Assembly: GCA_947306705.1 (NCBI GenBank)
Contig: CAMZHD010000004.1
Span: 1-42,307 of the forward strand
Origin: an uncultured Caryophanales bacterium
GTDB lineage: Bacteria; Bacillota_I; Bacilli_A; RF39; UBA660
Length of the DNA: 42,307 bases
Reading direction: 5' to 3'
The translations under genes and the position numbers were made by a program. Of the stretch, positions 1,362-37,296 are shown piece by piece (position 1 is the first letter of the stretch; each line of letters starts with the position of its first letter). Under the pieces are notes generated by a model that made no database searches, had not been told where the DNA came from, and saw only the letters and a list, made by a program, of their open reading frames with translations.

Positions 1362-1390
1362 AAAATTACTTACTAAACAGTAAGTAATTC
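1362..1390 (-). terminator. Intrinsic terminator overlapping the 3' end of frr
   Basis: GAATTACTTACTGTTTAGTAAGTAATTTTTT hairpin on the minus strand. Confidence 0.8.
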
Positions 1391-1921
1391 ATCTTCTTTA
1401 TTTTTTAATTCCGCTTCAATCTTTTTATTATATTCATTTACTAAATCTTGAATGTCCTTTTCCATTCCTTTTTCTGCGTCTTCTGGAAGTTCTGCTTTCT
1501 TAACATCTTCCAATCCATCATGACGAATATTACGGATAGATACTTTAGCATCTTCTGCGATAGCTTTTACTTGTTTTGCAAGTTCTCTTCTTCTCTCTTC
1601 TGTTAACTCTGGAATCACAATACGAATGGTTTCTCCATCATTTCCAGGAGTATATCCAAGGTTAGAAGCAAGGATTGCTTTTTCAATCGCACCTAAAGAA
1701 CTCTTATCAAATGGTTTAATAAGTAACTGTCTAGCTTCTGGAACAGAAATCGTTGCAAGTTGTTTTAAAGGAGTCATGCTTCCATAGTACTCTACCATAA
1801 CTCCATCTAAACTAGAAGGATTTGCTCTTCCAGCGCGTACCGTTGTAAATCTTTTTGTTAAATTCTCCATTGTTTTATCCATTTTATCCGTAATCTCTAA
1901 TAAAATCATATCCGTATCCAT
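1373..1921 (-). CDS. frr: Ribosome recycling factor
   Basis: RRF signature ENLTKRFTTVRAGRANPSSLDGVMVEYYGSMTPLKQLATISVPEARQL; start placed at MDTDMIL after GAGGTGG. Confidence 0.96.
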   Translation of the reverse strand: MDTDMILLEITDKMDKTMENLTKRFTTVRAGRANPSSLDGVMVEYYGSMTPLKQLATISVPEARQLLIKPFDKSSLGAIEKAILASNLGYTPGNDGETIRIVIPELTEERRRELAKQVKAIAEDAKVSIRNIRHDGLEDVKKAELPEDAEKGMEKDIQDLVNEYNKKIEAELKNKEDELLTV

Positions 1922-1961
1922 CAAATACCACCTCGTATTCATTATATCTTATTTTCAAACA

Positions 1962-1999
1962 AAAAAAAAGAGATTTTAGATTACATCCGTCTCTTTTTT
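1962..1999 (-). terminator. Terminator at the end of the protease/anchor gene pair
   Basis: AAAAGAGA...TCTCTTTTTTTTT; the stop codon lies in the loop. Confidence 0.7.
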
Positions 2000-3328
2000 A
2001 AAGATATGCTTAAATCTTGGAAAAATAACTAATCCAAAGAATACTAGTAGAAGAATAAATTCTACAACACATACAATGGCATATGGATTTACTTTCTTCT
2101 CAACTTTTGCAGGCTCTAAATCTGCTTTTGTTAAGAAGTACTTATCTCCTTCTACACTAAACTCAACCATTCCATTTTTAACAACTAAATCTTTTTGTTT
2201 TAGAGTAGTCTTTTTTCCTTTTGTATCATAGGTATATAAAGATACTTTTTCTCCATCTTTATATTGATCTCCTACATAGATTTGAGTTTTAACTCCCTTA
2301 GAATATTTTTGATTAGGGAATGTTAAATAAACTCCTTGACGATATCCAACTAATTCATCAAATGTATCTTTATCAGAAAATTTAAAATCAATTTTAGATT
2401 TCATTGGACTTACTTGGTCTAAAGTTTTTCCATCTACAATCCATGTATAAAGAATAGAATTCTCTTCTCCATTTTGAACAAAATGAACTTCTTTTTTAGA
2501 ATCTTTAATCTTTTTCATCATATCTGTTGTGATTTCATCATCAGGATTTAAAGATACATAAACATCTTGATCTTCATCTTCTAAAGCTTCATCAAATCTC
2601 TCAACTGTATAAAGATTATCTTTACGAGTAATGGTTAAGTAATAAGATTTAGAAGCACCATTCTCAGCTTGTACAAGAATCATGAAACTATTCTCTCCTA
2701 CAGCTAAAGGAGCTTCTCCCATTCCACTAACAACAGCTTTACTATCTTCCGCAACAGCTTCAATTTTAATCTTAGTAATGGAATTTTTAACAATTAAAGA
2801 ATAATGTGTATCATCAATCTTCGTTAATTTGTAATCATCAACTGCTAATTTTGATAAATTCGTATTTCCACTTCTACTATCCGTAACAGGGTTAACTTGT
2901 TGACCTCCGCCTCCTCCGGATGGAGTTGGATCAGGTGTAGGAGTTGGTGGAGGAGCAGGCCTCTCTGCAAATGTTACCGTAACAGATCCTGTTGGATAGG
3001 AAGTAACATCTGTATCATAATCAGATACATCTCCAGATAAACTAACCGTGAATGTTCCAGGGGTAGCAGAAGATAATGTATAAGATTGAGATCCTCCTAC
3101 ATTACCATTCATATCAGCACCTGCAATAACATCATTAACACTTCCTGATACTCTTAAATTCCAAGTACAAGCAAAGTAGTTAACCGTAACAGTTACATTG
3201 TCTCCTACATAAGCATAAGTTGTACTTGCAGATATACTTGCATTAGCAGCAAATACACCTTTTGGTAAGAATACCCCTACCGATAAAACGAAAGCAAATA
3301 TCCAACGAACTATTTTTTTATTCATCAT
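1976..3328 (-). CDS. Secreted, C-terminally membrane-anchored protein with an N-terminal beta-sandwich (cohesin-like?) domain and a cadherin-like beta-sandwich domain
   Basis: Signal peptide; ISASTTYAYVGDNVTVTVNY... beta-sandwich; Pro/Gly linker; LSKLAVDDYKLTKIDDTHYSLIVKNSITKIKIEAVAEDSKAVVSG (PF12733-like pattern); C-terminal TM and basic tail. Confidence 0.75.
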   Translation of the reverse strand: MMNKKIVRWIFAFVLSVGVFLPKGVFAANASISASTTYAYVGDNVTVTVNYFACTWNLRVSGSVNDVIAGADMNGNVGGSQSYTLSSATPGTFTVSLSGDVSDYDTDVTSYPTGSVTVTFAERPAPPPTPTPDPTPSGGGGGQQVNPVTDSRSGNTNLSKLAVDDYKLTKIDDTHYSLIVKNSITKIKIEAVAEDSKAVVSGMGEAPLAVGENSFMILVQAENGASKSYYLTITRKDNLYTVERFDEALEDEDQDVYVSLNPDDEITTDMMKKIKDSKKEVHFVQNGEENSILYTWIVDGKTLDQVSPMKSKIDFKFSDKDTFDELVGYRQGVYLTFPNQKYSKGVKTQIYVGDQYKDGEKVSLYTYDTKGKKTTLKQKDLVVKNGMVEFSVEGDKYFLTKADLEPAKVEKKVNPYAIVCVVEFILLLVFFGLVIFPRFKHIFKKETDVI

Positions 3329-6017
3329 CTGAATTCCCCTTTCTTTGGATGGTTCCAGTACCTTTTAAGTATTTAACAATTTTTAATAAATCAGCTGAAT
3401 TAATCGTACTATCATCATTACAATCAGCAGCTTTATAGTAAACTCCTGTAAGAGTTGTACCCTTCAAATGTTTAACAATCTTTAATAAGTCAGCCGAGTT
3501 AATATTTCCATCTCCACTGGCATCTCCACGAACGATATTTGTAAATTGAGCAACTGTCGTATTACCATTCATAATTTTAACAGTACTTCCTGTAGAAATA
3601 TAACTTTGTCCTTTCATATCAACTTGAATCGTATAACCACTAGGAATTGTAATATAACCCTTAAATACGTTTTGACTTGTATTTGGTTCAATGAAATCAA
3701 TGGTATTATCATCATAATTAACATCATAATGATTGATGACATAATCACCTGTTTGGATAACTCTCCATTGCGCATATAACTTAACGACAGCTCCTTGAGT
3801 AGAACTTAAATTAGATACGTTTTGACCATTCGTATAAGAAGTTCCACTACCATTAGCATTTGTATTCCATCCAACGAATTCATAATTCGTTCTTGTAAAC
3901 TTATTAGCAGATAAAGTAGCACTCGTTCCATATGTAAAGCTTTGATTACTCATAGAACCCGTTCCACCATTAGCATTGAACTGAACGGAATAAGTAATAG
4001 GATTCCATTGTGCATATAAACTCATATCTTGACTAATTGGATTCATTGCTTGTCCGGCATTATAAGAAGTACCACTACCATTTGCTTTTGTATTCCAACG
4101 AACAAATTGATATCCAGTTCTAGTAAACGTATTCGCATTCAAATTAAAGTTAGTAAATGGAACGACCGTTTGTGTTACATTCGAACCACTACCACCATTT
4201 GGATAATAAATTACTTTATACGTAGCATTTCCAACAATAATTGGTATTTCTTTTGTCGTATTAGAATAGGTTAATTTCAATTTATAAACACCCGTTGGTG
4301 TATTAGAAGCAACTGTTAAAATTGGATTTAAATCATTCTTAGCGACTTTATTATTAGAAAAACTAAAGTAACTAGAAGCACTTCCTCCACTAGAATTTAA
4401 GAATGAATAACTAATATTACTATTAGAAGGAACATTCTTTGTATTGGTATAAAGTCTAGCAGTATAGGTACTTGATAAAGTACCAACATTGATCGTACTA
4501 ATAGAAGGCTCAATCACTGGAGTTGTATTTACATTAGAAGTAAATACCGCAATTGTATTACGTAATAACGTTACATTATTTGTACTTGCAACAGTAACAC
4601 TAAAAGTAGAATCATTTAAAACAACATTTAAATCAGATAAATCAACAGTAACAACACCTGGATAAGTAACATTAACCGTTTTAACATTATTATAATTGGC
4701 ACTACTTGAATTAACAGAAATGTTATAATTACCATTTTTTCCATAAGCAAAGAACTTAATCTTCTGAACTTTCTCACTCGTATTAATCTTCTTTGTAAAA
4801 GAATGTGTATAAGAACTATTATAATAAATACGATAAGCTTCTATAGAATTATGATAATTATTATCCCAATTACGATTACTCATAGAAGACATATCTGTAA
4901 AGATATAAATATCATCCTCTAAAGAATCATAAGCAATATATACATAAGAATAGGTATTTCCCCAAGAATTACGAACTAACCAAGCACCAGTACCGGTAAC
5001 CGGATTACTACAAGAAGTATAAGATGTATGAGTAGATCCTGAAATACAATACTTATAAGAATAGTTATCATCCCATCCAATAATCTGCATAGCATGACCA
5101 CCATCTTGATTACAAGTAGTATCTACTCGAATAATTTGTTTTCCATCTGTATTCGTAGCACTACAAGAATACCCAGGAGCTTGTGTACCAATATAGGCAC
5201 CACCATTATTCATAATCAATTCTTTGGCAGCCCTAACAATATTATTTCTTTCCGTAGTAGTCGTTGAACTTGTAATGGTTGGCATCTTAACAGAACTATT
5301 TAATTCATAAACAGAATTTCCATAGTTTAATACTTCTGATAATTCTTTTTTCTCCATTGTGTTAGAAAATGGCATGGTAGACTCACTTACTAAACCAATT
5401 CCATTCGTAAGTAATACAGTAGAAACTAAGAAGTTTCCTCCAGATGCTAATTCACGATTTCCATTTTCATTTTCATAATCTTTAATACCATCCGTAGAAG
5501 CAGCATAATCAAGTTGTCTTGTTGAAAAGATATTATTTTGATTAAACTTCAACATTCCATAACTCTCTGCTTGTTCTACTGCAGTAAAAGACCAACATAA
5601 ATCAAGAACTCCTTGATTCTTTAAAGATGTAATATAACTTCTATTATTATAATTTCTCAAATCAAAAGAAGTTGGTAAATTTGCTTTTACTTCATTTACG
5701 GTATAATCAACTGCATAAGCAATTGGTATTTCATCTACATTTTCTTTTTCTTCCTCAGATAATTCCAAATAATGAATATATTTTGGATTTAAATAAGGGA
5801 CATTCTCTTCTTTATTCACTTCTGTAGGAAGAACTTCTCCTGTCTCTTCATAAACTTCTTGAATATATTCTTTTACCTCATCGGATAAATAAGAATATGG
5901 TTTAGTCTCTAAAACATGAACAATTCTATCTTCCTTCAAAGTTGAATGAAATGCAAAATAACAGCCAATCACGGCAAATAAAAGAAGTACTACGAATAAC
6001 AATTTTTTCTTCTTCAT
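3318..6017 (-). CDS. Secreted papain-family (C1A) cysteine protease with two Listeria-Bacteroides repeats and a C-terminal type I dockerin
   Basis: QGVLDLCWSFTAVEQ (Cys), GGHAMQIIGWDDN (His), WLVRNSWGN (Asn); repeats GYQFVRWNTKANGSGTSY...LYAQW; dockerin GDASGDGNINSADLLKIVKHLKG...ADCNDDSTINSADLLKIVKYLKG. Confidence 0.92.
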   Translation of the reverse strand: MKKKKLLFVVLLLFAVIGCYFAFHSTLKEDRIVHVLETKPYSYLSDEVKEYIQEVYEETGEVLPTEVNKEENVPYLNPKYIHYLELSEEEKENVDEIPIAYAVDYTVNEVKANLPTSFDLRNYNNRSYITSLKNQGVLDLCWSFTAVEQAESYGMLKFNQNNIFSTRQLDYAASTDGIKDYENENGNRELASGGNFLVSTVLLTNGIGLVSESTMPFSNTMEKKELSEVLNYGNSVYELNSSVKMPTITSSTTTTERNNIVRAAKELIMNNGGAYIGTQAPGYSCSATNTDGKQIIRVDTTCNQDGGHAMQIIGWDDNYSYKYCISGSTHTSYTSCSNPVTGTGAWLVRNSWGNTYSYVYIAYDSLEDDIYIFTDMSSMSNRNWDNNYHNSIEAYRIYYNSSYTHSFTKKINTSEKVQKIKFFAYGKNGNYNISVNSSSANYNNVKTVNVTYPGVVTVDLSDLNVVLNDSTFSVTVASTNNVTLLRNTIAVFTSNVNTTPVIEPSISTINVGTLSSTYTARLYTNTKNVPSNSNISYSFLNSSGGSASSYFSFSNNKVAKNDLNPILTVASNTPTGVYKLKLTYSNTTKEIPIIVGNATYKVIYYPNGGSGSNVTQTVVPFTNFNLNANTFTRTGYQFVRWNTKANGSGTSYNAGQAMNPISQDMSLYAQWNPITYSVQFNANGGTGSMSNQSFTYGTSATLSANKFTRTNYEFVGWNTNANGSGTSYTNGQNVSNLSSTQGAVVKLYAQWRVIQTGDYVINHYDVNYDDNTIDFIEPNTSQNVFKGYITIPSGYTIQVDMKGQSYISTGSTVKIMNGNTTVAQFTNIVRGDASGDGNINSADLLKIVKHLKGTTLTGVYYKAADCNDDSTINSADLLKIVKYLKGTGTIQRKGNSDDE

Positions 6018-6107
6018 ACATTCCACTCCTATTCTATTTCATTATAACAAAGAATAAAAAAGGAGTAAATAAAGTGAAAAAAAAGTTTACACTATATGAC
6101 AAAAAAA

Positions 6108-6122
6108 AACACATAAAGTGTT
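6108..6122 (-). terminator. Intrinsic terminator of the 225-aa gene
   Basis: AACACTTTATGTGTT followed by a T run on the minus strand. Confidence 0.75.
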
Positions 6123-6124
6123 TT

Positions 6125-6802
6125 TTAATAATTACATACAAAGAAAATAAATGTTACAAAAGCTAAAAACATAATACTAAAGATTGCGAATAACACTAAT
6201 GTAACTGCATCTAATACACTACCCTTTGTAGTATCAATCGCTACATCTCCAACATATGCTTCTTCATCAAAAGAAGGTAACTCTTCTTTAAGATCCGTCT
6301 TTTCATCAAATGAGATATCATATAGTGTTCTCATTTCATCTTCAAGACGATTCATTTTAAGAGTAGATTCAGTATCTTCTACTTTCTTTTCTTCTTTTTT
6401 AACTGGTTTCTTCTCAACTGGTTTAGTCTCTTTTTTAACCGGTTTTCTCTCTTCTACGACAATAGCTTCTTTTTTCTTCTTTTGTGGTCTTTCCGCAACT
6501 ACAATAGCTTCTTTCTTAGGAGTACTCTTCTTAGGTGTTGTACTCGTTGTACTCTTTTTAGGAGTAGTAGTCTTAGGTGTAGTTGTTGTCTTAGGTGTAG
6601 TCTTTGAAGTACTACTCTTAGTAGTAGATGTTTTCGTTTTCGTAGAAGTTGTCGTTGTCTTCTTAGGAGAAGATTTTTTAGCGGCTTCTATCTTAGCTTT
6701 TTCAATAATAGTAGTATCATCTAATTGTTTCTTTTCTTTTAATAAATTATCTAATTTTTTATTGACTCTTTTACGTGTAGAACTAGAAGTTTTATTAGCC
6801 AT
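6125..6802 (-). CDS. Low-complexity Lys/Thr/Pro-rich protein with a C-terminal TM segment
   Basis: KTTPKTTTTPKTTTPKKST tracts, duplicated KKEAIVVAERPQKKK/KKEAIVVEERKPVKK, and a hydrophobic C-terminus. Confidence 0.75.
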   Translation of the reverse strand: MANKTSSSTRKRVNKKLDNLLKEKKQLDDTTIIEKAKIEAAKKSSPKKTTTTSTKTKTSTTKSSTSKTTPKTTTTPKTTTPKKSTTSTTPKKSTPKKEAIVVAERPQKKKKEAIVVEERKPVKKETKPVEKKPVKKEEKKVEDTESTLKMNRLEDEMRTLYDISFDEKTDLKEELPSFDEEAYVGDVAIDTTKGSVLDAVTLVLFAIFSIMFLAFVTFIFFVCNY

Positions 6803-6854
6803 AATCTCATCCCCTTATTTGCGTCATTATTATACCAAAAAATCCCAAAAAAAC

Positions 6855-6870
6855 AAGTAGTAAACTACTT
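6855..6870 (-). terminator. Intrinsic terminator
   Basis: AAGTAGTTTACTACTT followed by GTTTTTTT on the minus strand. Confidence 0.7.
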
Positions 6871-6882
6871 ATTTTTTAATTT

Positions 6883-8445
6883 TTAAAAAGCTGAACAATT
6901 GGTATTAGAAGTACTTCCTATACTTTCTTCTTTATTATATCTAAATTCCAAACATTGTTCATTGTTTGTTGGTGATTGAAACTTAAAGATCAATTCTCCA
7001 TTAAGAGCATAACAATATCTATAATTTCCATAATCGAATTTTCCAAAATTATGAATTTCTTTTCCTTCAATCGTAACTAATTTGATTTCTCCATTCTGTT
7101 CTACCAGTACATAATCATCTTTAACATCAAATACTTTATAACTTGCAAGTAGTTCTTTTCCTGAAAAATCAAATAAGTTTTTATAATTTCCATCCCCTCT
7201 AAACATTACATATTTATTAAAGATTGTATAGTCAGAATACGTAACAGGAACAATTTCTTCTCCTGTACGGTAATTGATAATACCACTTTTGATATCATAT
7301 GGGAACGAATTCCTATTAACGGTCGTAGCAACGATAGAGCCCTTGTCTAAAACAGTATATTCCATAGTTGTACGTCCTTTTCCATATGTAAGAGCATAGA
7401 TAGGTTGAATTGTAAAATTACCCGTTTTAATATTCATAACTCCAATTGTGAACATATCACAAGTAGGACTTACAACAACATATTCCGTATCAAATTCTTT
7501 TCCATATTTTATCGGATAAACAGAACAGTATTTATTACCAAATAATTTTTCTTTTTTCTTAAAATTATAAATCGCAACAGAACGATTTTCTTCCGTAGCA
7601 TAATAAACATAAGTAGGATCTATATCTCCTAATATTCTTAAAGTACTATGAGGCTCATCAATCGTAAACTCATAAATATCATATTCTTTTAACTTAGATG
7701 GTTTCGTTAATCTTGCCTTCTTATCCTTTTTAGAGATATAAACATGAAGAGCTTTATCATCCAAAATAATTGGTTCCTCTTCTTCCTCTTGCTTTTCTTT
7801 TCCATAAGAATACTTCGTCTTTACTTGATCAATACTACAATCGTTTAAATAAACATCTCCATCTTCATAGATTTCATGAATATTACAAACAATATCATAT
7901 TCATATCCAACTAATTCTTCTGCTTCATCAAATGATAATAATTTTTGCTTTTGTTGCAAATAAATAATTACAAGTTGGTGAATCGCAGATCCATAATCTT
8001 CAATAATTTCTTTTTGTTCTTTATCCGTAAGAGTATGATCTTTCTCTTTATTCTCTGCTTTTGGTCTACTTAAAATAAAGAACAACAAAATAAATAAAAC
8101 AAAAACAGTAACAACACCCAATATTAAGTATAAATAGAAATTAGTATCATTTTTCTTGATAGGTTCTTCTTTCTTTTCTTCATGCTTTTCTTCTACAACA
8201 GGAGTTTCTTCAACCTTTTCTTCAATTACTTCTTCTTTTACTTCTTCAACAGGTTCTTCCTTTACTTCCTCTACTGTCTCTTCTTTGGAAAGATCTTCTA
8301 TTTTATCAATCTTTTTTGTATCATCATCAGAAGGAACAACTTCTTCTTCTTTCACAATTTCTTCTTTTTTATGAATTTCTTTTTCTTCATTTAAAATATT
8401 ATTAATTTGCTCATCAATTTTATCAATGCTATCTTTTTCCATCAT
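6883..8445 (-). CDS. Membrane-anchored protein: acidic Glu/Val/Lys-rich N-terminus, one TM, extracytoplasmic C-terminal domain (possibly beta-propeller/WG-like)
   Basis: EEVKEEPVEEVKEEVIEEKVEETPVVEEK; TM FYLYLILGVVTVFVLFILLFFIL; start at MMEKDSIDK after GAGGTG. Confidence 0.7.
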   Translation of the reverse strand: MMEKDSIDKIDEQINNILNEEKEIHKKEEIVKEEEVVPSDDDTKKIDKIEDLSKEETVEEVKEEPVEEVKEEVIEEKVEETPVVEEKHEEKKEEPIKKNDTNFYLYLILGVVTVFVLFILLFFILSRPKAENKEKDHTLTDKEQKEIIEDYGSAIHQLVIIYLQQKQKLLSFDEAEELVGYEYDIVCNIHEIYEDGDVYLNDCSIDQVKTKYSYGKEKQEEEEEPIILDDKALHVYISKKDKKARLTKPSKLKEYDIYEFTIDEPHSTLRILGDIDPTYVYYATEENRSVAIYNFKKKEKLFGNKYCSVYPIKYGKEFDTEYVVVSPTCDMFTIGVMNIKTGNFTIQPIYALTYGKGRTTMEYTVLDKGSIVATTVNRNSFPYDIKSGIINYRTGEEIVPVTYSDYTIFNKYVMFRGDGNYKNLFDFSGKELLASYKVFDVKDDYVLVEQNGEIKLVTIEGKEIHNFGKFDYGNYRYCYALNGELIFKFQSPTNNEQCLEFRYNKEESIGSTSNTNCSAF

Positions 8446-8481
8446 AACACCTCTATTATAAAGGTATCTCAAATCAAAAAA

Positions 8482-8506
8482 AAAGTACATAGAATTATGC
8501 ACTTCT
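8482..8506 (-). terminator. Intrinsic terminator overlapping the 3' end of the 690-aa gene
   Basis: AAGTGCATAATTCTATGTACTTTTTTTTT on the minus strand. Confidence 0.7.
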
Positions 8507-10558
8507 TTTTTTATAATAAGTAAAACTTGTCATTCCAACTGTAAAGATTAGTAAGAAAATACTAAATACATTTCTAAAAGTACCTGGATTTAATAATTGA
8601 ATTTGTACTTGTGTTTCTCCTGATTGAACAACATCTACTTCATTGCTTTGAACCTCACTTGTTCCAATAAAAGAAACACCTGGTTTTGCACCTTCTTTTA
8701 TTCTTCCTTGATATGTATAGATCTTGTTATCCCCCTCTTCCAAGACATCTAATATCCAAGAAATAGAATGAGTATCAGAATGATATACTCCCTTATGATT
8801 CGAACTATCTTCTACATATTCTACTTCTTTAGGGAGTTTAGTAGTAATCACATTATTCGTAGAAGTTATATTTCCAGTGTTTTCAACAATGATTTGATAC
8901 TCTAACAAATCATTTTTTGATACAACAACAGAATCTTTTTGATTAACATAGTTTTTAATACTTAAAGCAGGTACTCCATATTCATTGACTACTTCAAAAG
9001 CACAAGGTTTGTGGCCTGCTCCAAAACCATCTCCTAAGGCTTTAAAAGGTCCACTTGAGCAAGAAAATATTACATCAGAACCTACTCTTGGATAAATACT
9101 TTTATATGTCTTTTTCCTATCATAAGGAGCGAAAGAATAGTCTCCCATACTACATCGTAAGTATACAGAAACTAACGGAGAATCGCTAGAAACTTCTTGA
9201 TTTGGATCTACATAAAACTCAAGATTTAATTCAAGTGGAAGATATACAATAAACTTCTTTTTAGAAAAACCAACTGGTACAACAGTTTCTTCCAATATCA
9301 TAGGTATATATGCTTGACCATCAATACTATAATTACCCGTTTTGCTTAAATAAGCTCCATTTCCCCAAACAACATCATCTTGAATTTTTTCCAAATCACC
9401 ATAAGTTTGGATAGATTCTAACACTTGTTTATAATCACTACTGAACAATTGATATACTTCTAAAAAACCTGATGTAACATTCGAATTACCAGAAGTCCTT
9501 TTTAATTGACAATCACCAATCTCAATTCCATTAGAGAGATAATAGTAATTTTCCTCTAAACTATTTTTTGGATTAGAAGATAGTTTATAATTACCATCTA
9601 AGTTTTTCAATTGAAAAACAACACCCGGTAAAAATTCATGATTTGGATCAAATTTATCAACTCTTAATTTAAACTCAAATTGACCCATTCTATCAATAGA
9701 ATCTCTTACTCTTTTTTGTGTATGAATTTCAACGACATTTGTCTCTCCAACTACAAACTCCAAAGTATTATCATTTATTTCTACAGAAGTACCATTAAGA
9801 GTTGCTGAAACAATTTCAAAATCTGGAGAAACATTATAAACAATACTCTTAGTTTCTCCATATTTTCCACTCATACAATTGGAACAAGTAACTCCTAAAT
9901 CTAGATTTTGAACAATATCAAATTCAACTGGAGTAAATCTAACATCTAAATAAATGTCATAATTATTATTTACCTCAGAAGGATATTCAATTTCATAAAT
10001 ATTATTTCCTAAAGGAGTAGCATCAAATACCGAAGCATTGATTTCACTGGACCTTCTATATTTTAAATTCGCTGTATATCCATAATCAGGTGTTAATTGT
10101 ACTTTTACTTTATCTCCCCTTAATCCAGTAGGATTTTCTAGAATCGTAACAGTACAATGACTGTATTCATTATCCATAAACGTTTGATATACATAAATAA
10201 TATCATAATCTTTATAACCGCTCATACGAAATCTTTGATTATATTTGATTTTAAGGCTCTCTAGGCGAGTATCTATTCTCATATTAAAACGACTTAAAAC
10301 ACTCAATGGAATATCACGAATTGAAAAATCCAAGTCTGTTTTTGTGAATCTTACTTCACGTCCAAAAGATCGATCAGAATCATCTAATAATGTCTTAAAT
10401 ACCCCCGCAACATCTTTTTCATCATCAAAAGCACAAATGCCACTACATTTGCTTTCCCAATCCGGATTATAATTTCCTTCATCAGTCCAAGAATCTGCAT
10501 AAACAGGATGACAAAAGAAGAATCCTAAAAACAATAGAATTAAAATAGTCTTTTTCAT
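8495..10558 (-). CDS. Secreted, C-terminally anchored surface protein, paralog A, with a DUF11-like repeat and a putative NPGTF sorting-type tail
   Basis: Signal peptide; YQIIVENTGNITSTNNVITTKLPKEVEYVEDSS (DUF11-like); tail LLNPGTFRNVFSIFLLIFTVGMTSFTYYKKRSA; closely parallels the 698-aa neighbour. Confidence 0.82.
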   Translation of the reverse strand: MKKTILILLFLGFFFCHPVYADSWTDEGNYNPDWESKCSGICAFDDEKDVAGVFKTLLDDSDRSFGREVRFTKTDLDFSIRDIPLSVLSRFNMRIDTRLESLKIKYNQRFRMSGYKDYDIIYVYQTFMDNEYSHCTVTILENPTGLRGDKVKVQLTPDYGYTANLKYRRSSEINASVFDATPLGNNIYEIEYPSEVNNNYDIYLDVRFTPVEFDIVQNLDLGVTCSNCMSGKYGETKSIVYNVSPDFEIVSATLNGTSVEINDNTLEFVVGETNVVEIHTQKRVRDSIDRMGQFEFKLRVDKFDPNHEFLPGVVFQLKNLDGNYKLSSNPKNSLEENYYYLSNGIEIGDCQLKRTSGNSNVTSGFLEVYQLFSSDYKQVLESIQTYGDLEKIQDDVVWGNGAYLSKTGNYSIDGQAYIPMILEETVVPVGFSKKKFIVYLPLELNLEFYVDPNQEVSSDSPLVSVYLRCSMGDYSFAPYDRKKTYKSIYPRVGSDVIFSCSSGPFKALGDGFGAGHKPCAFEVVNEYGVPALSIKNYVNQKDSVVVSKNDLLEYQIIVENTGNITSTNNVITTKLPKEVEYVEDSSNHKGVYHSDTHSISWILDVLEEGDNKIYTYQGRIKEGAKPGVSFIGTSEVQSNEVDVVQSGETQVQIQLLNPGTFRNVFSIFLLIFTVGMTSFTYYKKRSA

Positions 10559-10578
10559 AAACTTCACCTACTACCTTA

Positions 10579-10607
10579 ATTATATCGTGCAAGATATAAT
10601 CGTTCAA
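10579..10607 (-). promoter_or_regulatory. Sigma-A-type promoter for paralog A
   Basis: TTGAAC-N17-TATAAT on the minus strand. Confidence 0.7.
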
Positions 10608-10623
10608 TATTATTGCAAAAAAA

Positions 10624-10643
10624 GAAATGTCATTTGACACTTC
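10624..10643 (-). terminator. Terminator of paralog B
   Basis: GAAGTGTCAAATGACATTTCTTTTTTT on the minus strand. Confidence 0.75.
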
Positions 10644-10653
10644 TTTTAATAAA

Positions 10654-12750
10654 CTAATTGGTTCTTTTAGAGTAGACAACTCCTGTTATTCCAACCAGTG
10701 TAATGAATACTAGGAAAACAACTAATAGATTTCGAAAAGTACTTGGATTCAATATTTGTATTTGTACTTGTGTTTCTCCTGATTGAACAACATCTACTTC
10801 ATTACTTTGAATTTCACTTGATCCAACAAAGACAACTCCCGATTTAGCTCCTTCTTTTATCTTACCTTGATATGTAAAGGTATGTTCCTCTGCTTCTGCT
10901 AATGTATCTAGTCCCCAAGTAATAGAATGAGAAGAATCATCATATACTCCATTTTCACTAGCACTATTTGAAACATATTCAATTTCTTTTGGTATTTTTG
11001 TAACAATAACATTACTCGTTGAATTTGCATTTCCAATATTTTTTACTACAATTTGATATTGTAATGGATCATTTTGAGAAACAACAATAGAATTTTTATG
11101 ATTTACAAAATTTTGAATAGATAATGCTGGAACTCCTGATACATTTATAACCGTCAATGTACAAGAAGAATCTCCTGCGCCTTTACCTAAAGACGGAAAA
11201 TGATCTCCAGGATGAGGTGTGTCTTCATAACCACAATAGGAATAATATTCGTACTGTTGGAAAACCTCTAAAAAGCTTTTATCTAAGATACTCTCATCAT
11301 ATGGGAAAAACATAAAAGTATTAGAATCAGATTGAATAGTCATAGACACTAAAGGACTATCTCCTGAAAGAGGTTGATTCTCATCCACATAAAATTCTAA
11401 CCAAACATCAACAAGAGCATAAGCAATAAAATTCTTCTTAGAATATCCATTTGGTACAATGACTTCTTCTAATATAAAAGGAATCATAAATTCACCAGAA
11501 ACAATATAATTACCAGTAATTAATACTTCCGCAGGATCATGATTATAATCAAGAGCCTCTAAACTAGAAAGATCAGAATAAACACTAAATTGATCTAAAG
11601 CTTGTCGAATAGAACTTGGTAGTATTTGATAAACCTCTAAGAATCCTGGAGATACAATTGGATTTCCAGACGTTCTTTTGATACGTGTCTCTCGACCACC
11701 AGCCACTTCTGGATAAACAATCCAATAACGAGACCTTTCCAATGAATCTGCCCCAGAAAAAGATTTTACATGAAAATTGTTATCAACATTTCGAAGATTA
11801 AACTGAACACCTGGTAGGTACCTTCCATCAGTACCTATTTTATTAATGGAGATAGTAAAATTTAATTTTCCTTGTTTGATTACGGAAGATCTCATTCTTT
11901 TTAAAGTATGGATTTCTACTACTACATTTCCAGTAACATCTAATTCTAGTTTATTATTAACTAATTGTCGACTGACTCCATCCACCGTAACAGAAGTGAT
12001 TTCAAAATCCTCTGAGACATTATACTCAATCACTTTATGTTCTCCATATCCAGCAGAAGTACAATTGTTACAAGAAACTCCTAAATCTAAGTTTTGAACA
12101 ATATCATAAGTAATTCCTCGAAAGGAAACCGTTGGATAAATATTATAATTACTTGTGTCATCTACAGATGGATAAGGAATCTCATAAATATCATTTCCCA
12201 ATGGAACAGCATCAAGTAACAATGCAGTTGTTCCAGTAGTCGTTCGATATTGAAGAGTCGTATATTCATAACCTGTATTGGGTATTACTTTTAATCGTAC
12301 TTTATCTCCTCTTAATCCAGTAGGATTTTCAAGAATTGTAATCGTTCCATTAGAAGTCGATGGAAGAATCGTTTGATAAACATATTCTATTTCATATGAA
12401 CCAGCGCTCGAAACTTGAAACATCTGACCATATTTTACTTTAATATGCATTCCTGAATAAGCAAATCTTACACTCAATCGATTAATACAACTAGTTGGAA
12501 TATCATGAATCGAAAAATCTAAATTTGATTTAGAATATTGAATTTCTCCAAATTGTATATATCGATTTTCATCATAACTTTTCATAATTCCGGCTAAATC
12601 TTTTTCATCCGTGAAATTACAAAAAATAGAACCACACTTGCTTTGCCAATCAGGATTATAATTTCCTTCATCGATCCAAGAATCTGCATAAACAGGTTTG
12701 GAAATTAAAATCATTCCAATAAATAATAAGATTAAGAATACTTTTTTCAT
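10654..12750 (-). CDS. Secreted, C-terminally anchored surface protein, paralog B (DUF11-like; NPSTF tail)
   Basis: YQIVVKNIGNANSTSNVIVTKIPKEIEYVSNSAS; tail ILNPSTFRNLLVVFLVFITLVGITGVVYSKRTN; shares SWIDEGNYNPDWQSKCG...ENPTGLRGDKV...QNLDLGVSCNNC with paralog A. Confidence 0.82.
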   Translation of the reverse strand: MKKVFLILLFIGMILISKPVYADSWIDEGNYNPDWQSKCGSIFCNFTDEKDLAGIMKSYDENRYIQFGEIQYSKSNLDFSIHDIPTSCINRLSVRFAYSGMHIKVKYGQMFQVSSAGSYEIEYVYQTILPSTSNGTITILENPTGLRGDKVRLKVIPNTGYEYTTLQYRTTTGTTALLLDAVPLGNDIYEIPYPSVDDTSNYNIYPTVSFRGITYDIVQNLDLGVSCNNCTSAGYGEHKVIEYNVSEDFEITSVTVDGVSRQLVNNKLELDVTGNVVVEIHTLKRMRSSVIKQGKLNFTISINKIGTDGRYLPGVQFNLRNVDNNFHVKSFSGADSLERSRYWIVYPEVAGGRETRIKRTSGNPIVSPGFLEVYQILPSSIRQALDQFSVYSDLSSLEALDYNHDPAEVLITGNYIVSGEFMIPFILEEVIVPNGYSKKNFIAYALVDVWLEFYVDENQPLSGDSPLVSMTIQSDSNTFMFFPYDESILDKSFLEVFQQYEYYSYCGYEDTPHPGDHFPSLGKGAGDSSCTLTVINVSGVPALSIQNFVNHKNSIVVSQNDPLQYQIVVKNIGNANSTSNVIVTKIPKEIEYVSNSASENGVYDDSSHSITWGLDTLAEAEEHTFTYQGKIKEGAKSGVVFVGSSEIQSNEVDVVQSGETQVQIQILNPSTFRNLLVVFLVFITLVGITGVVYSKRTN

Positions 12751-12770
12751 CTATCTCACCTACTATCTAA

Positions 12771-12799
12771 ATTATATCGAGTAATAATCATCCATTCAA
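12771..12799 (-). promoter_or_regulatory. Sigma-A-type promoter for paralog B
   Basis: TTGAAT-N17-TATAAT on the minus strand. Confidence 0.7.
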
Positions 12800-12813
12800 T
12801 ATTATCAATAAAA

Positions 12814-12837
12814 AAGAAGTATCATTTGACACTTCTT
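12814..12837 (-). terminator. Terminator downstream of tsf
   Basis: AAGAAGTGTCAAATGATACTTCTTTTTTATTG on the minus strand. Confidence 0.8.
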
Positions 12838-13745
12838 TATTTTGCAGCATTCATTTGAGCAGCTACTTCTTCAGCAAAGTTTTCTTGTTTCTTTTCAATT
12901 CCTTCACCAACAGCAATTCTTGCCATGAAAGTAACTTCTCCACCGTTTTCTTTTACATATTTTTCAACAGTCATAGAAGAATCTTTAATAAAGTCTTGCT
13001 CTACTAAGCAATTTTCCTTAAAGAACTTAGAAAGTCTACCAGTAGCCATCTTATCCAAGATTTCATCAGACTTACTTGCATTCTTTGGATCATTCTTAAT
13101 TTCTGCTTTAATAATTTCTTTTTCATGTTCAACCATATCAGTTGGAACAGCATCACGATTAACAGCAATTGGGCTCATAGCACATACTTGCATAGCTACA
13201 TCTCTAGCAACATCTCTTGCAGTATCTCTATCTTCAATTCCTTTAACGATAACTACAGATGTAATTCTTCCACCCATATGTGAATAAATTCCAAATGTTT
13301 CATCATCTTTTTTCGTAAATCTTTGGAAACGTCTAAAACTAATTTTTTCTCCAATCGTAGCAGTTTCCTCAACAATTCTTTCAGCAACTGTTTTTCCATC
13401 TTCAAGTTTTACTTCATTTGCTTCTTCTGTATCCTTACATTTAGCAAACATTAAAGCTTTATCTAATTCTTTTACTAATTCATGGAATTTTTCATTCTTT
13501 GTAACGAAGTCTGTTTCACAGTTTACCTCAAATAGAATTGCTTCATTATCATTACTAGATCCTACTGTAATTCCTTCTGCAGCAATTCTTGATTCTTTCT
13601 TAGCAGCTTTAGCAATACCTTTTTCTCTTAGCCAATCAACGGCCTTATCCATATTACCTTCACATGCTTCAAGTGCCTTCTTACAATCCATCATTCCAGC
13701 ACCTGTTTTTTCTCTTAATTCTTTTACATCACTTGCACTAAACAT
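12837..13745 (-). CDS. tsf: Elongation factor Ts
   Basis: VKELREKTGAGMMDCKKALEACEGNMDKAVDWLREKGIAKAAKK. Confidence 0.98.
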   Translation of the reverse strand: MFSASDVKELREKTGAGMMDCKKALEACEGNMDKAVDWLREKGIAKAAKKESRIAAEGITVGSSNDNEAILFEVNCETDFVTKNEKFHELVKELDKALMFAKCKDTEEANEVKLEDGKTVAERIVEETATIGEKISFRRFQRFTKKDDETFGIYSHMGGRITSVVIVKGIEDRDTARDVARDVAMQVCAMSPIAVNRDAVPTDMVEHEKEIIKAEIKNDPKNASKSDEILDKMATGRLSKFFKENCLVEQDFIKDSSMTVEKYVKENGGEVTFMARIAVGEGIEKKQENFAEEVAAQMNAAK

Positions 13746-18027: not shown

Positions 18028-19596
18028 TTATGGATATATTAAATAATAGGCAGAACTCCATCGATTAAGACAAACACAACCACTTGATGGACAAGAAACA
18101 CCAAATCCACTCTCACAACGGAAATTATCATTCATAGCTATTATATGTAACCATAATAAATAATTTGTACCCTCATTAGCAACATATTGAAAATCATCAA
18201 CAGTTAAATAAGAGGTAGTGCGATTCACATATATTTCAAATTGTCCTGTTGATGTATAATTCGATCCAGCACCTACTCTTGCCAATAAAGCATCCGCATA
18301 CATCCAGTAAGAAGTTTTCGCAAGAGTAACAATTGCATAATAAGTTGTATTTCCACTTACTTCTATAGATGCAGTTGCTCCATACGTAGCCGTAGTAGCA
18401 CTAGAGTTTGTATTCCATCCTTTAATGCTAAAATAGTTGCTAAAAGCTTGTCCATTTTTATTAGTTCCAGATAAATTATTAATTCCAGGAGCTGTAACAC
18501 TACATTTTCCATTGGCACCAGGAGTACAAGTTCTAGTAACATTAGAAGTATTCCAAGTTGCCTTATTATAATTAAAGTTTACCGTATATGGTTGCCTACA
18601 AATGTTATCACTTGCTAAACTATATCCTGTAGTACAAGCTGTTGCTGTACATACATTTGAAACTGTATTATTATTCCAAGATGGAGTAGCCCAAGAAGAA
18701 GTTCCAGAATAACCTTCACAATTTGTTGTGCAAGATGTAGTAGTACCAGCAGTACTTGTTTTTCCAGTAGCGCATACCTTACAAGCAATTTGTCCTTCTT
18801 CATCTTGATAAGTTCCTGCCGGACATAAAGTACAAGTATCAGATTCTGATAAACTATAAGATCCCTTTGGGCAATTACTGCGTCCGTGTGTTTCTATTGG
18901 ATCATAATTATAAGTTCCACCAGGGCAAGAACTTCCCGCTTCACATGGAACGCAATCACATGTACCAGCTGGTAAATAAGTACCTTCCTCACATACAACA
19001 CTACTACAAGCAGCTACATCTTCTTCCGTACCATCTGCTTGGATATAAACTACTTCAAACTGAATGGTTAATTCTTGATCTTCTGTTGGATAGACAGACT
19101 CATCGACTCCATCTTTATATAAGAACCGTACTAAGATTCTTTCAGAATCATTTACATCTAACCTTTGTCTAGGAGCAAGTTCTACTCCATTTATATAAGT
19201 CACAACGTACTCAAGATATTCTTGTTGCTCCGTAGTCAAAACAGGAAGAACATTAACAGAATCAATCATGGCATTGATAGTACCTTCATTCACAACATCT
19301 ACCGTAAATTCATAGAAATCTCCAGGATTTTCCAACTGTGCTGCAAAAGAAACAGAAGTTGGTGTCGTGATAGAAGCTTCTGTAGTAGCTGTGACACTTC
19401 CTGTAGTTACTTCCAAATTCTCAAAATGAATATCCCAACGAGCTTCTAACATTTTAGAAACACCATCAATACTCATAGTCGTTGTTAAAAAAGCATAACC
19501 TACTGTTAAACTTACAAGAGATAAGAATAAAAACATAAAAACAAAAGAACGTTTTGGATTATATCGAAACTTTCTTAAAAAACGTCTAAGTTTCAT
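18028..19596 (-). CDS. TasA/camelysin-like (SipW-dependent) protein fused to GCC2/ephrin-receptor-like Cys-rich repeats and a Listeria-Bacteroides-like repeat
   Basis: N-terminus NPKRSFVFMFLFLSLVSLTVGYAFLTTTMSIDGVSKMLEARWDIHFENL...LENPGDFYEFTVDVVNEGTI; Cys-rich CPKGSYSLSESDTCTLCPAGTYQDEEGQIACKVCATGKTS. Confidence 0.83.
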   Translation of the reverse strand: MKLRRFLRKFRYNPKRSFVFMFLFLSLVSLTVGYAFLTTTMSIDGVSKMLEARWDIHFENLEVTTGSVTATTEASITTPTSVSFAAQLENPGDFYEFTVDVVNEGTINAMIDSVNVLPVLTTEQQEYLEYVVTYINGVELAPRQRLDVNDSERILVRFLYKDGVDESVYPTEDQELTIQFEVVYIQADGTEEDVAACSSVVCEEGTYLPAGTCDCVPCEAGSSCPGGTYNYDPIETHGRSNCPKGSYSLSESDTCTLCPAGTYQDEEGQIACKVCATGKTSTAGTTTSCTTNCEGYSGTSSWATPSWNNNTVSNVCTATACTTGYSLASDNICRQPYTVNFNYNKATWNTSNVTRTCTPGANGKCSVTAPGINNLSGTNKNGQAFSNYFSIKGWNTNSSATTATYGATASIEVSGNTTYYAIVTLAKTSYWMYADALLARVGAGSNYTSTGQFEIYVNRTTSYLTVDDFQYVANEGTNYLLWLHIIAMNDNFRCESGFGVSCPSSGCVCLNRWSSAYYLIYP

Positions 19597-19651
19597 TTTA
19601 TCACTCCTCTACCATATAATTCATTATATCAAAAATCATAAATATAAAACA

Positions 19652-19677
19652 ACAAAAAAAGCATTAAAAATGCTTTT
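19652..19677 (-). terminator. Hairpin/terminator between TasA-like genes
   Basis: AAAAAGCATTTTTAATGCTTTTTTTG on the minus strand. Confidence 0.7.
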
Positions 19678-19699
19678 TATAGAATAGTCAAAATTAAGA

Positions 19700-20941
19700 C
19701 TAGTCTTTTTCTAAATATAACCTAAACGCTGGTGCAATTCCGACATTGTTTTCTGTTCCAGATAGACCAATTGAATCACCTGTATTGGAAACTTCTCTAT
19801 ACCACCACATATTATTTCCTTCAGCAACTCTAGTCCAATAAGCTGTATCTGTTCCATTATATTGTTTGATACGATCTGCATTGGTATTATGAGTTTGATA
19901 ATAATCTAAAGTAGCAGTAGAACTAGCAGCTGTATCATATTCATAAGAAAGTCCCAATTCTTTCAAGGATAATAAGAATAATTTATTAGTTGTAGTATAA
20001 TTTTCTGCTCCTGTATTTGATCCATGCCCAGAAACAACTGTTGTGTTCGCAATCACACTTTGCAAATCACTTGGAAGAGCATTATAAATCGTACTATCAA
20101 GATAAGATGAATTTAAGGTATTTGGCCATCCTCCTATATTCAAAGGATTATCAGATAATTGTTGAATAGTAATAATATCAGCAAATTCAAAAACAACTTC
20201 ACACGCAGTTTTTGATTCTAATTCACAATTAGTAGTAGAAGTATTAACAATTCGTAGCGTATGAGTACCAAAATCACCCATATCTATTTCTTTTGTCTCT
20301 CCAACTTGAAGTATATCATAGTAATTAACAATATCATCCCAACTCATATTTGAGAAATTACGATGTTCTATTTCTTCTCCTCTTCCCTGAACATAATCTA
20401 TCGAAATGGAACAAGAAAAATTAACATCTTCTAAAGGATATACAGATTCATCATTACGAATTCTATATTGAAAACGAACTAATAGTGTTTCTTGATCCCC
20501 TGCATTTAATGTATCTCCTTCTTGAATATTTACTTCATCTAAATAAGTAACATAATATTGAAAGTATTCTTCCTGTTCTGCAGTCAACTCAGGAAGGATG
20601 TGAATCTGCTCAACATGAGCATCAATGGTTCCTGCATTTACTACATCTACTGTAAATTCATAGCAATCTCCAGGATTTTCTAATTGAGCTCCGAAAGTGA
20701 TAGAAGTCGGAGTTGAAATCGTTGCAGGAGTTGTTTCGGGTACATTATCTGGCACAACTAAATTATCAAAATGAATATCCCAACGCGCTTCCATCATTTT
20801 AGAAACACCATCAATACTCATAGTCGTTGATAAAAAGGCATAACCAACGGTTAAACTAACAAGAGATAAAAACAAAAACATAAACATAAAAGAACGTTTT
20901 GGATTATATTTCATTTTTCTTAAAAAATATTTTAGTTTCAT
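19700..20941 (-). CDS. TasA/camelysin-like protein with a DUF6273-like C-terminal domain
   Basis: N-terminal 75 aa nearly identical to the 522-aa paralog; C-terminus WWYREVSNTGDSIGLSGTENNVGIAPAFRLYL. Confidence 0.8.
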   Translation of the reverse strand: MKLKYFLRKMKYNPKRSFMFMFLFLSLVSLTVGYAFLSTTMSIDGVSKMMEARWDIHFDNLVVPDNVPETTPATISTPTSITFGAQLENPGDCYEFTVDVVNAGTIDAHVEQIHILPELTAEQEEYFQYYVTYLDEVNIQEGDTLNAGDQETLLVRFQYRIRNDESVYPLEDVNFSCSISIDYVQGRGEEIEHRNFSNMSWDDIVNYYDILQVGETKEIDMGDFGTHTLRIVNTSTTNCELESKTACEVVFEFADIITIQQLSDNPLNIGGWPNTLNSSYLDSTIYNALPSDLQSVIANTTVVSGHGSNTGAENYTTTNKLFLLSLKELGLSYEYDTAASSTATLDYYQTHNTNADRIKQYNGTDTAYWTRVAEGNNMWWYREVSNTGDSIGLSGTENNVGIAPAFRLYLEKD

Positions 20942-20960
20942 TCTATCCCTCCTTATAAGA

Positions 20961-20985
20961 ATAAAAAGCATCTAAAGGATGCTTC
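20961..20985 (-). terminator. Hairpin/terminator downstream of the 248-aa gene
   Basis: GTAAGAAGCATCCTTTAGATGCTTTTTATTC on the minus strand. Confidence 0.65.
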
Positions 20986-21732
20986 TTACAATATTTCTAT
21001 ATCATCGTCTGCTTTAAGAATCTTCTTTGGTAAATCTGTAAATACAGCAGTTACATCTTCTAACACTTTAATAATTTGTGGAGTATCTGTATCGTGTTGT
21101 ACTTCTATTTGTTGTGTATATTGTAAATCCTCTTCGACTTGTTGTTCTTGTTGTTGAACTTGTTGTTCTTGTTCTTTTTTACGAACAGGAGATACTTTAT
21201 AACTCTTTTGATTTGATAATTTAACAATTGTTGTTTTATCAATAGATTCTAACATTTCAGAATCAATATCTTTTTCACGTTTTCTTTGAATCTTTAAATT
21301 ATTTAATTCAATTTCTACAGGAGAAACTACATCTGGTTGTACCTTCTCAATATAGATATAAGCTACTTTGTCATCTAATAATACAAAGGAGCAAGATTCT
21401 ACTTGTTTTAAATAACAAATTGGTTTACGAATTTCTAATTGTGCATCTACTAAATCATCAATACTAGATAATTCAATAATACTTCTTCCTGTCATATCAG
21501 GAACAGTACTACTCTTAACCAATACAGAATCAAATGTGTTTAAAATATCTTTAATATTTCTTTCATAAGCATTTCCTGTTTGGCGGAACATAAAACGAAT
21601 TCCAACAAGTAAAGACACAATGGCAGCTGTAAACAATAATATGCAATACTTACTATAAACACCTGTTCTCATAGAAAAACCTGCTATTCCTAACAACAAA
21701 GCAATTCCTAAAAAGAGAAAGCCTTTTTTCAT
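20986..21732 (-). CDS. Two-TM protein with a DUF5305-like soluble domain and a Gln/Glu-rich tract
   Basis: IELSSIDDLVDAQLEIRKPICYLKQVESCSFVLLDDKVAYIYIEK; KKEQEQQVQQQEQQVEEDLQYTQQIEVQ; adjacent to sipW-like. Confidence 0.6.
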   Translation of the reverse strand: MKKGFLFLGIALLLGIAGFSMRTGVYSKYCILLFTAAIVSLLVGIRFMFRQTGNAYERNIKDILNTFDSVLVKSSTVPDMTGRSIIELSSIDDLVDAQLEIRKPICYLKQVESCSFVLLDDKVAYIYIEKVQPDVVSPVEIELNNLKIQRKREKDIDSEMLESIDKTTIVKLSNQKSYKVSPVRKKEQEQQVQQQEQQVEEDLQYTQQIEVQHDTDTPQIIKVLEDVTAVFTDLPKKILKADDDIEIL

Positions 21733-21743
21733 AGTATCATCTC

Positions 21744-22895
21744 CTATTTTCTACTATTAAAGTATTCCGACAACCATACCGTTGGGTAGGCAATGTAAGG
21801 AATACGTATTTTTACAATTCCTTGTACTTGGCTCTGTTTTACTTCTGCAGGATCTGCTGCATTATTTGCATCTCCCTTTGTTACATAGTAAACAGTACCT
21901 TTTTCATCATGAACTTCTATAACTCTATGGACAATAACTTTCTTACCTTTCTTATAAGCAATAACGTCCCCTTTCTTCAAAGGTTCCTCATGTACTTTCT
22001 TTAAGATAAGAGCATCACCCTTATTAATTTTAGGTTTCATAGAATCAGATCCTACCCCAATCATATAATGAGGGAAGAATCCAGATATCAAAGCAGCTAA
22101 TATAATAACAATTGCTGCAAGTGGGATATCCCAAATACTAAAGTTTTCTTTACTAAAGATGTATTGTGGTTGTTCTAGATGTTCATCAATAATGGTAAAG
22201 GCTGCAATATAAATCAATGATGGTAAAGCAATAAATACCATAGAATGTAGATAATCTCCAATATCTGGTACAATTGGTACCAAGAATATATAAATATCAA
22301 CAATCAAACGATAGAACAAAGGAACACGATATCCAATGTTATAGCATAAATAACTAAGAACAGCATTTTTAATCGTAATTGGTAACAATACGGTAGCAAA
22401 CTGTCCAAATAATAAAGATACATCTTGTACTTGTAAAGTACGAATACTAATAGCAATTTCAAATACTGTTAATAAAACGGTATATAAAACTGCAATATAT
22501 TTTTTATCTCTATTTGCCCATAATACAACATAGCGGAATATTTCAGTCAATATAATAACAATAATTGGGGCAACTATATTATCTAATAATGTTAAGAAAC
22601 TTCTAGAATAAGCATTCTTTAGGAAACCAACAACAAATCCTAGACCATACATAATGACAAAAGCTAGTCCTATGTAAAAGATGGTTACCCTAAAAATATT
22701 CTTACTCATATAAGTAGACTTATATTTTCGAATACCTAGTAACCAGATTGCTAAAGATACCATAATCAATAAGAAAGATGCATTAATAATTTCAGAACAT
22801 TTCATGAAATTTTGGAATAATACGACTTTATATAAAATGATATATAGTATGAATATAGCAAATATAGAAATATTTTTAATCATTCTTTTTGACAT
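21744..22895 (-). CDS. sipW: Signal peptidase I, ER-type (SipW-like, S26B), with a large multi-TM N-terminal extension
   Basis: GSDSMKPKINKGDALILKK (Ser), KVIVHRVIEV (His instead of Lys), VTKGDANNAADP; several predicted TM segments precede the catalytic domain. Confidence 0.9.
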   Translation of the reverse strand: MSKRMIKNISIFAIFILYIILYKVVLFQNFMKCSEIINASFLLIMVSLAIWLLGIRKYKSTYMSKNIFRVTIFYIGLAFVIMYGLGFVVGFLKNAYSRSFLTLLDNIVAPIIVIILTEIFRYVVLWANRDKKYIAVLYTVLLTVFEIAISIRTLQVQDVSLLFGQFATVLLPITIKNAVLSYLCYNIGYRVPLFYRLIVDIYIFLVPIVPDIGDYLHSMVFIALPSLIYIAAFTIIDEHLEQPQYIFSKENFSIWDIPLAAIVIILAALISGFFPHYMIGVGSDSMKPKINKGDALILKKVHEEPLKKGDVIAYKKGKKVIVHRVIEVHDEKGTVYYVTKGDANNAADPAEVKQSQVQGIVKIRIPYIAYPTVWLSEYFNSRK

Positions 22896-22953
22896 AACAA
22901 TCCCTCTATATTCCTTTATACCTTTATACATCTACTAAGTTAGTAGACATATA

Positions 22954-22994
22954 AAATTATAAAGGAGACTACCAAAAGGTAGTCCTTTATAATT
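22954..22994 (-). terminator. Long intergenic hairpin between the tasA-like and sipW-like genes (attenuator/stability element)
   Basis: AAATTATAAAGGACTACC-TTTT-GGTAGTCTCCTTTATAATTT on the minus strand. Confidence 0.6.
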
Positions 22995-23000
22995 TATTTA

Positions 23001-23537: not shown

Positions 23538-23680
23538 CAAAATTCTCCTTCCATTTATCTTATAAATCAATTATAGAGGACAAATTCAATTATATGCAAT
23601 AAATCTGTCAATATTTTTTTGTACTTTACACGTCAATTAGTCAATTGTTAGGTAAAATAATTGTAAATATGTTTTAAAAC

Positions 23681-37295: not shown

Positions 37296-37296
37296 A

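Follow-up and report, generated by a model that had tools for sequence, protein, structure and literature searches.

A dockerin-bearing papain-like protease and its adjoining membrane protein as a probable one-enzyme, one-receptor docking cassette in gut Bacilli

We analysed a stretch of 42,307 nucleotides (nt) from an uncultured Caryophanales bacterium of the RF39 lineage (contig CAMZHD010000004.1 of assembly GCA_947306705.1), referred to here as the window. The window is contig C4 of the assembly, which comprises 1.29 Mb and is 74.6 % complete. All positions are those of the whole window; L-numbers denote loci and G-numbers the genomes compared. Our subject is a pair of genes on the minus strand, encoding a C1A (papain-like) protease with a C-terminal dockerin and a membrane protein which we call the anchor (Table 1). 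Together they probably form a docking cassette.

The protease and anchor genes

The protease open reading frame (ORF) had initially been annotated as a C1A protease of 900 amino acids (aa). The family assignment held, while the length has to be corrected by one residue for the ATG start; an alternative GTG start gives 902 aa. The Peptidase_C1 domain (aa 114-357, E 5.5e-12, Pfam) carries an intact active-site set (Gln135, Cys141, His308 and Asn350), and the protein belongs to the papain family C1A both by profile and by these Gln/Cys/His/Asn residues. Its nearest solved relative is 4ci7/4d59 from Clostridioides difficile (E 1.5e-6, PDB search), titled in the PDB as a cell surface-associated cysteine protease, which we take to be Cwp84. 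From the N-terminus, the protease consists of a hydrophobic segment (about aa 5-22), a propeptide-like region, the C1A domain, a beta-rich region, List_Bact (Flg_new) repeats (E 5.6e-21, Pfam), an X-module and the dockerin. By eye, the hydrophobic segment looks uncleaved. We gave up a lipoprotein reading of this N-terminus, which has VIGC in the window, since relatives do not conserve the Cys.

The dockerin (Dockerin_1 at aa 831-884, E 3.3e-9, Pfam protein scan) is of type I, as had been claimed. Both of its repeats, each of about 22 residues, have complete calcium ligands at positions 1, 3, 5, 9 and 12 (D-S-D-N-D and D-N-D-N-D). Its best PDB match was to the serine-protease dockerins 8x39/8x3a of Clostridium thermocellum (2e-8). 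Together with the X-module-like domain in front of it, it weakly matched the X-dockerin chains 2b59_B, 3kcp and 5g5d_B of CipA, with both parts spanned (E 0.004-0.03). A PF00404 search found this single dockerin place in the whole 74.6 % complete assembly.

The overlap of the two genes is exactly as long as initially annotated. In the anchor gene, the first ATG is preceded at a distance of 7 nt by a Shine-Dalgarno-like AGGGG. The anchor comprises a signal peptide, an N-terminal beta-sandwich (hereafter the N-domain), a Pro/Gly linker, a cadherin-like domain, an alpha/beta domain (aa ~240-400), a transmembrane (TM) segment (~415-443) and a short basic tail. Its structure model, with a predicted local distance difference test score (pLDDT) of 86.8, has a signal helix, the N-terminal beta-sandwich, the cadherin-like and alpha/beta domains and a C-terminal helix. 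Every part named in the initial annotation was recovered; it had overlooked the alpha/beta domain, the X-module and the N-terminal hydrophobic segment of the protease.

Table 1. Features of the protease-anchor cassette in the window
Feature	Position	Strand	Evidence
C1A (papain-like) protease, 899 aa from ATG at 6017	3318..6017	-	ORF, Pfam
X-module-like domain before the dockerin (X-dockerin dyad)	3528..3719	-	PDB matches, conserved in relatives
Type I dockerin, two repeats, DASGDGNINSADLLKIVKHLKG / DCNDDSTINSADLLKIVKYLKG	3366..3527	-	PF00404, E 4.8e-11 (genome search)
Overlap of protease and anchor genes, 11 nt, ATGATGAATAA	3318..3328	-	sequence
Putative membrane receptor/anchor, 450 aa	1976..3328	-	ORF, Pfam, structure model
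N-terminal ~92-aa beta-sandwich (aa 29-121 in model), proposed dockerin receptor, short type A5	2969..3244	-	profile links, covariation
Cadherin-like beta-sandwich domain PF12733, anchor aa 174-236	2621..2809	-	Pfam E 1.1e-5

Pairing and covariation of dockerin and anchor in relatives

We surveyed 147 related genomes, found dockerins in 71 and inspected the surroundings of the dockerin places. At least one dockerin-anchor pair was present in 55 of the 60 dockerin-bearing family genomes inspected. The usual layout has the dockerin near the C-terminus of the enzyme (mostly within ~15 residues) and the anchor gene after a median of 10 nt; in 60 of 62 pairs the gap measures from -15 to +35 nt. The paired downstream gene encodes a signal peptide, a beta-sandwich, a PF12733 domain (in 57/62 anchors of relatives) and usually a C-terminal TM segment. 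By their titles, the related records come from uncultured Bacilli, Erysipelotrichaceae or Tenericutes of rumen and gut. An independent scan led by the anchor instead of the dockerin gave 79 loci, some on contigs common to both sets, and here 60 of 66 dockerin ORFs adjoined an anchor gene, including those of the isolates [Clostridium] fimetarium DSM 9179 and Lachnospiraceae C6A11. A search of the anchor-led loci for natural dockerin-anchor fusions gave none.

Within the genus, 18 of 39 species have both dockerin and anchor, two the dockerin only, none the anchor only and 19 neither (one genome, G027, was scored from a contig-end fragment), which gives a Fisher p of 3e-9 in a test that ignores phylogeny. 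The pairing also recurs across dozens of genera at differing genomic places and is far beyond chance. Conserved pairing in relatives, the absence of which the initial annotation had named as evidence against its proposal, was found by both scans.

In the window, the cassette and other surface-protein genes are flanked by tsf (12837-13745) and frr (1373-1942), spanning 1373-13745. This site holds the cassette in about seven genomes, that of the window among these. Since the tsf-frr distance is 5.7-10.9 kb with the cassette and 1.2-3.7 kb in most species without it there, the cassette behaves like a module that was gained or lost.

The cargo in front of the dockerin varies between C1A proteases, S8 subtilases and SH3-type proteins. 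In most other genera it is an SH3 protein with conserved motifs which by eye resemble a cell-wall glucosaminidase, although Pfam Glucosaminidase matches reached 1e-3 in only 2 of 57. "Protease display", as the arrangement had been called, is therefore too narrow a term.

Three types of N-domain can be distinguished: long (A4), middle (A6) and short (A5), the last being that of the window. We assembled 111 non-redundant dockerin-anchor pairs, of which 106 with complete regions were used for distance matrices. N-domain types match dockerin classes: A5 occurs with NSADLL..RQHL, A6 with ..DYV.IKNHIM and A4 with.LDLL.VQK.IL dockerins. N-domain and dockerin distances correlated with r 0.62 over the 106 pairs, and the partial r was 0.56 given the other domains of the anchor and the X-module; none of 2000 permutations was as high (maximum 0.17). 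As a control, the partial r between N-domain and X-module was 0.006. The covarying dockerin columns, in both repeats, are 18, 13, 17, 20, 10, 21, 14 and 11, and these include positions 10/11, the published determinants of cohesin recognition (PMC8063739). Calcium positions 1, 3, 5 and 12 carry almost no association, and position 9 some. Within A5, all four receptors paired with V17 dockerins (those of the window, L065, L080 and L143) are without the GPVSGC-type segment, versus 3 of 33 others (Fisher p 5e-4, post hoc and on related sequences).

The type of N-domain tracks the dockerin class and not the enzyme class. C1A enzymes are found with A6/DY (L066, L074) as well as with A5/SADLL, and so are S8 enzymes (A6/DY in L063 and L076). 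One genome, G003, has an A5 and an A6 pair, each with its own matching dockerin class.

Some loci depart from the common layout. One 326-aa protein (L087, G041:C4:102723-103238) ends in three near-identical tandem dockerins and has no adjoining anchor. Giant ORFs of about 2900-3300 aa contain Pfam cohesin and dockerin in one polypeptide (G007:C5, G048:C8, G054:C1 and G066:C27), possibly a self-assembling surface protein. Two records titled Candidatus Saccharibacteria (L151, L157) have anchors very like those of the Bacilli family and are perhaps mislabelled or contaminated bins.

The N-domain as a probable receptor and the competing explanations

The initial annotation had proposed a cohesin-type partner and suggested Foldseek and profile searches against cohesins. 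The link to cohesins was found through the longer relatives. A4 matches cohesins of solved structure (3l8q, 1.6e-9, PDB profile search), and several anchors of relatives exceed the cut-off of Pfam Cohesin (PF00963). Comparison of A5 with A4 by hhalign gave 96.0 % (E 4.9e-9). The whole chain of profiles, from cohesins (A9, PDB) over A4 to A5/A6, has probabilities of 96-98 %, A5 and A6 are linked likewise, and the negative controls (the cadherin-like domain and column-shuffled profiles) all stayed below 2 %. Through these intermediates, the N-domain type of the window is homologous to cohesins.

We also modelled the pair. In a close relative (L143) both genes are in the same frame and 12 nt apart, therefore we translated its DNA across the stop and let this stretch serve as a surrogate linker. 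The AlphaFold2 (AF2) alignment for this read-through had 27 naturally paired and 64 unpaired rows. For the X-dockerin plus N-domain, AF2 gave a pLDDT of 90.9 and a predicted template modelling score (pTM) of 0.75, equivalent to an average error of roughly 4-5 Å between the parts; for two folded but unplaced parts we calculated a pTM of about 0.48-0.62. The pTM of this model, made from the sequence of a relative, is consistent with docking.

Several observations weigh against a docked cohesin-type pair. The N-domain of the window has no cohesin match in Pfam or in the PDB sequence search, and direct profile comparison of A5 and A6 with cohesins failed, so that only A4 connects. With about 92 aa, the domain falls short of the cohesin fold, a nine-strand jelly roll of about 140 residues. 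The 50 top Foldseek hits of the read-through model were CARDB, PKD and other immunoglobulin (Ig)-like folds and included no cohesin; the same model also retrieved the dockerin 8x39, and the full anchor model returned tandem-Ig noise. Foldseek supports only a small Ig-like beta-sandwich, and comparison of structures alone does not reveal what the short domain is. No Pfam cohesin (PF00963) was found anywhere in the assembly and, since this is 74.6 % complete, another dockerin or receptor could be missing. The AF2 model is a surrogate, made by reading through the stop in a relative, and AF2 may reproduce complexes already known. Finally, the hydrophobic N-terminus of the protease may anchor it without any partner. 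Since A5 joins the cohesins through A4 and not directly, the N-domain of the window is best described as a putative shortened and diverged cohesin relative, which is not a cohesin by the usual tests.

Nevertheless, the outer domain of the partner is very probably the receptor of the dockerin, judging by conserved adjacency, co-occurrence in the genus, covariation at recognition positions and the cohesin homology of the longer relatives. Since dockerin and N-domain vary together across more than 100 relatives, the arrangement is very probably a one-enzyme, one-anchor version of cellulosome docking. We therefore favour the reading that the two genes encode a cohesin-dockerin cassette with one cargo, one receptor and a surface-held protease, and put its probability at roughly 0.78.

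Such a cassette could work as follows. Protease and anchor, their reading frames overlapping or nearly touching, would probably be made from one transcript, so that the partners are co-translated and exported. The C-terminal helix of the anchor would sit in the membrane and hold the cohesin-derived N-domain outside the cell. We infer that the calcium-loaded dockerin plugs into this domain, and with it the calcium dependence of the binding and its location at the surface; the protease would therefore be held there in fixed stoichiometry. As the connector, the dockerin-receptor pair would stay constant and co-evolve, and the enzyme that precedes it could be exchanged. By analogy with Cwp84, the protease likely processes surface proteins.

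Anchoring of the protease by the partner, as proposed, may not be the whole answer. By eye, C1A and S8 cargo in the genus of the window starts with a hydrophobic segment of 18-20 residues with no evident signal-peptidase site; the SH3-type cargo of other genera starts with classical signal peptides. The protease itself is thus probably a type II membrane protein, and may be tethered at both ends, the receptor being a second, orienting tether. Taken further, the dockerin-receptor contact would join two membrane-anchored proteins and gate, orient or cluster the protease without any role in attachment. To this we give a little less than an even chance. Against it, the protease might be cleaved at an unusual site. 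This reading agrees with the docking cassette in all but the purpose of the receptor.

We consider it unlikely that the partner is an independent, co-transcribed surface protein, for example of an envelope operon, and that the dockerin binds something else. The cassette stands in a series of genes for surface proteins, bounded by tsf and frr, which would fit this, as would the lack of a recognisable cohesin in the assembly of the window. However, the pairing holds across dozens of genera and different genomic places, genus members without a dockerin are also without an anchor, and the covariation links dockerin and N-domain specifically, with none for the X-module.

Pfam cross-matches prompted the idea that the N-domain is a chagasin-like (I42) inhibitor or a chaperone of the C1A protease. 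Chagasin is likewise an Ig-like beta-sandwich, and I42 matches occurred in 11 of 62 anchors, one of them over the curated cut-off (L110 3426-3755 in G063, 2.2e-7). The L110 score shows that I42 and receptor N-domains can be confused by profile. The N-domain of the window itself has no I42 match in Pfam, and the anchor accompanies S8 subtilases and SH3-type proteins too. Because the N-domain class matches the dockerin across C1A and S8 enzymes, we rejected the inhibitor idea as very improbable.

Least probable of all is that the cassette belongs to an ordinary cellulosome of many enzymes, the rest of which the incomplete draft lacks: a few relatives (such as G006, G057 and G081) do have many dockerins, but most relatives more than 90 % complete have few dockerin and few Pfam cohesin places per genome and no multi-cohesin scaffoldin that was seen, the cargo consists of proteases or SH3-type proteins and not of plant-wall enzymes, and the assembly of the window has the one dockerin place and no Pfam cohesin.

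Other surface-protein genes lie in the window. Two adjoining paralogues (690 and 698 aa, 8495-12750), the first with a DUF11 match, both end in a C-terminal membrane segment and are possible substrates of the C1A protease. By eye, we recognised TasA-like exported proteins in the region 18028-23570 (18028-19596, 19700-20971 and 23001-23570) with a SipW-like signal peptidase among them (21744-22931), and a sortase-like protein with an N-terminal membrane segment (36276-37307). Two large proteins with repeat-rich surface regions, of 818 aa (26421-28877) and 990 aa (39167-42139), have type IV prepilin-like N-termini, GFSLIELL and GFTLTELL respectively, also by eye.

Comparison with known docking systems

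Most knowledge of dockerin-cohesin docking comes from plant-fibre machines. What we see at the locus and in its relatives suggests a use that is simpler and common: in gut bacteria with small genomes and no cellulosome, a single enzyme is matched with a single adjoining membrane receptor. As short receptors escape the standard cohesin models, such systems are probably undercounted, and annotated dockerins without a partner may often have one next door. With more than 100 natural pairs and at least three recognition classes, the collection offers ready material for working out dockerin specificity and for designing orthogonal protein connectors, and brings a concrete, inexpensive test of binding within reach.

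In the literature searched, we found no description of a dedicated adjoining single-domain membrane receptor that combines shortened cohesin derivatives with exchangeable cargo, and no paper in which dockerins were connected with RF39 or with the PF12733 sandwich, which is weak evidence of novelty. On balance we lean towards an undescribed docking cassette, widespread in small-genome gut Bacilli and some Lachnospiraceae, which consists of a dockerin enzyme and an adjoining single-domain membrane receptor. It would come in at least three specificity classes and swap C1A, S8 and SH3/glucosaminidase-like heads, and its short and middle receptors, that of the window included, would be shortened cohesin derivatives and new types of dockerin receptor.

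Cwp84 of C. difficile is likewise a C1A cysteine protease of the cell surface, but it is attached through CWB2 modules and not by a dockerin. CipA and the type II cohesins of C. thermocellum share with the window a C-terminal X-module plus dockerin and a cohesin-type receptor on a surface protein. In contrast, the enzyme of the window bears the dockerin itself, there is no scaffoldin, and the receptor combines a single short cohesin-like domain with a TM segment in place of S-layer homology (SLH) modules.

Dockerin peptidases are known in C. thermocellum and in Ruminococcus flavefaciens (for the latter, PMC3573020, PMC2930009). One of those in R. flavefaciens, RflaF_05439, is an NlpC/P60 cysteine peptidase with an X-dockerin that binds the surface-attached cohesin ScaE (PMC3573020). 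It resembles our protease as a papain-fold peptidase with an X-dockerin and a receptor attached to the cell surface. However, it belongs to another peptidase family, is one among more than 220 dockerin proteins, and its cohesin is attached by sortase and is not encoded by a dedicated adjoining gene.

Pairwise assembly without a multi-cohesin scaffoldin is also found in the cohesin-dockerin glycoside hydrolases of Clostridium perfringens (PMC12997984), but there both partners carry glycoside hydrolase modules and there is no adjoining membrane receptor. The Limousia mucinolysome is a further case of dockerin peptidases in gut bacteria, where metagenome-assembled genomes with both Pfam modules are widespread (PMC12997984). 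It differs from the cassette in its multi-cohesin scaffoldins and carbohydrate-active enzymes, and the survey relied on Pfam models, which miss short receptors like that of the window.

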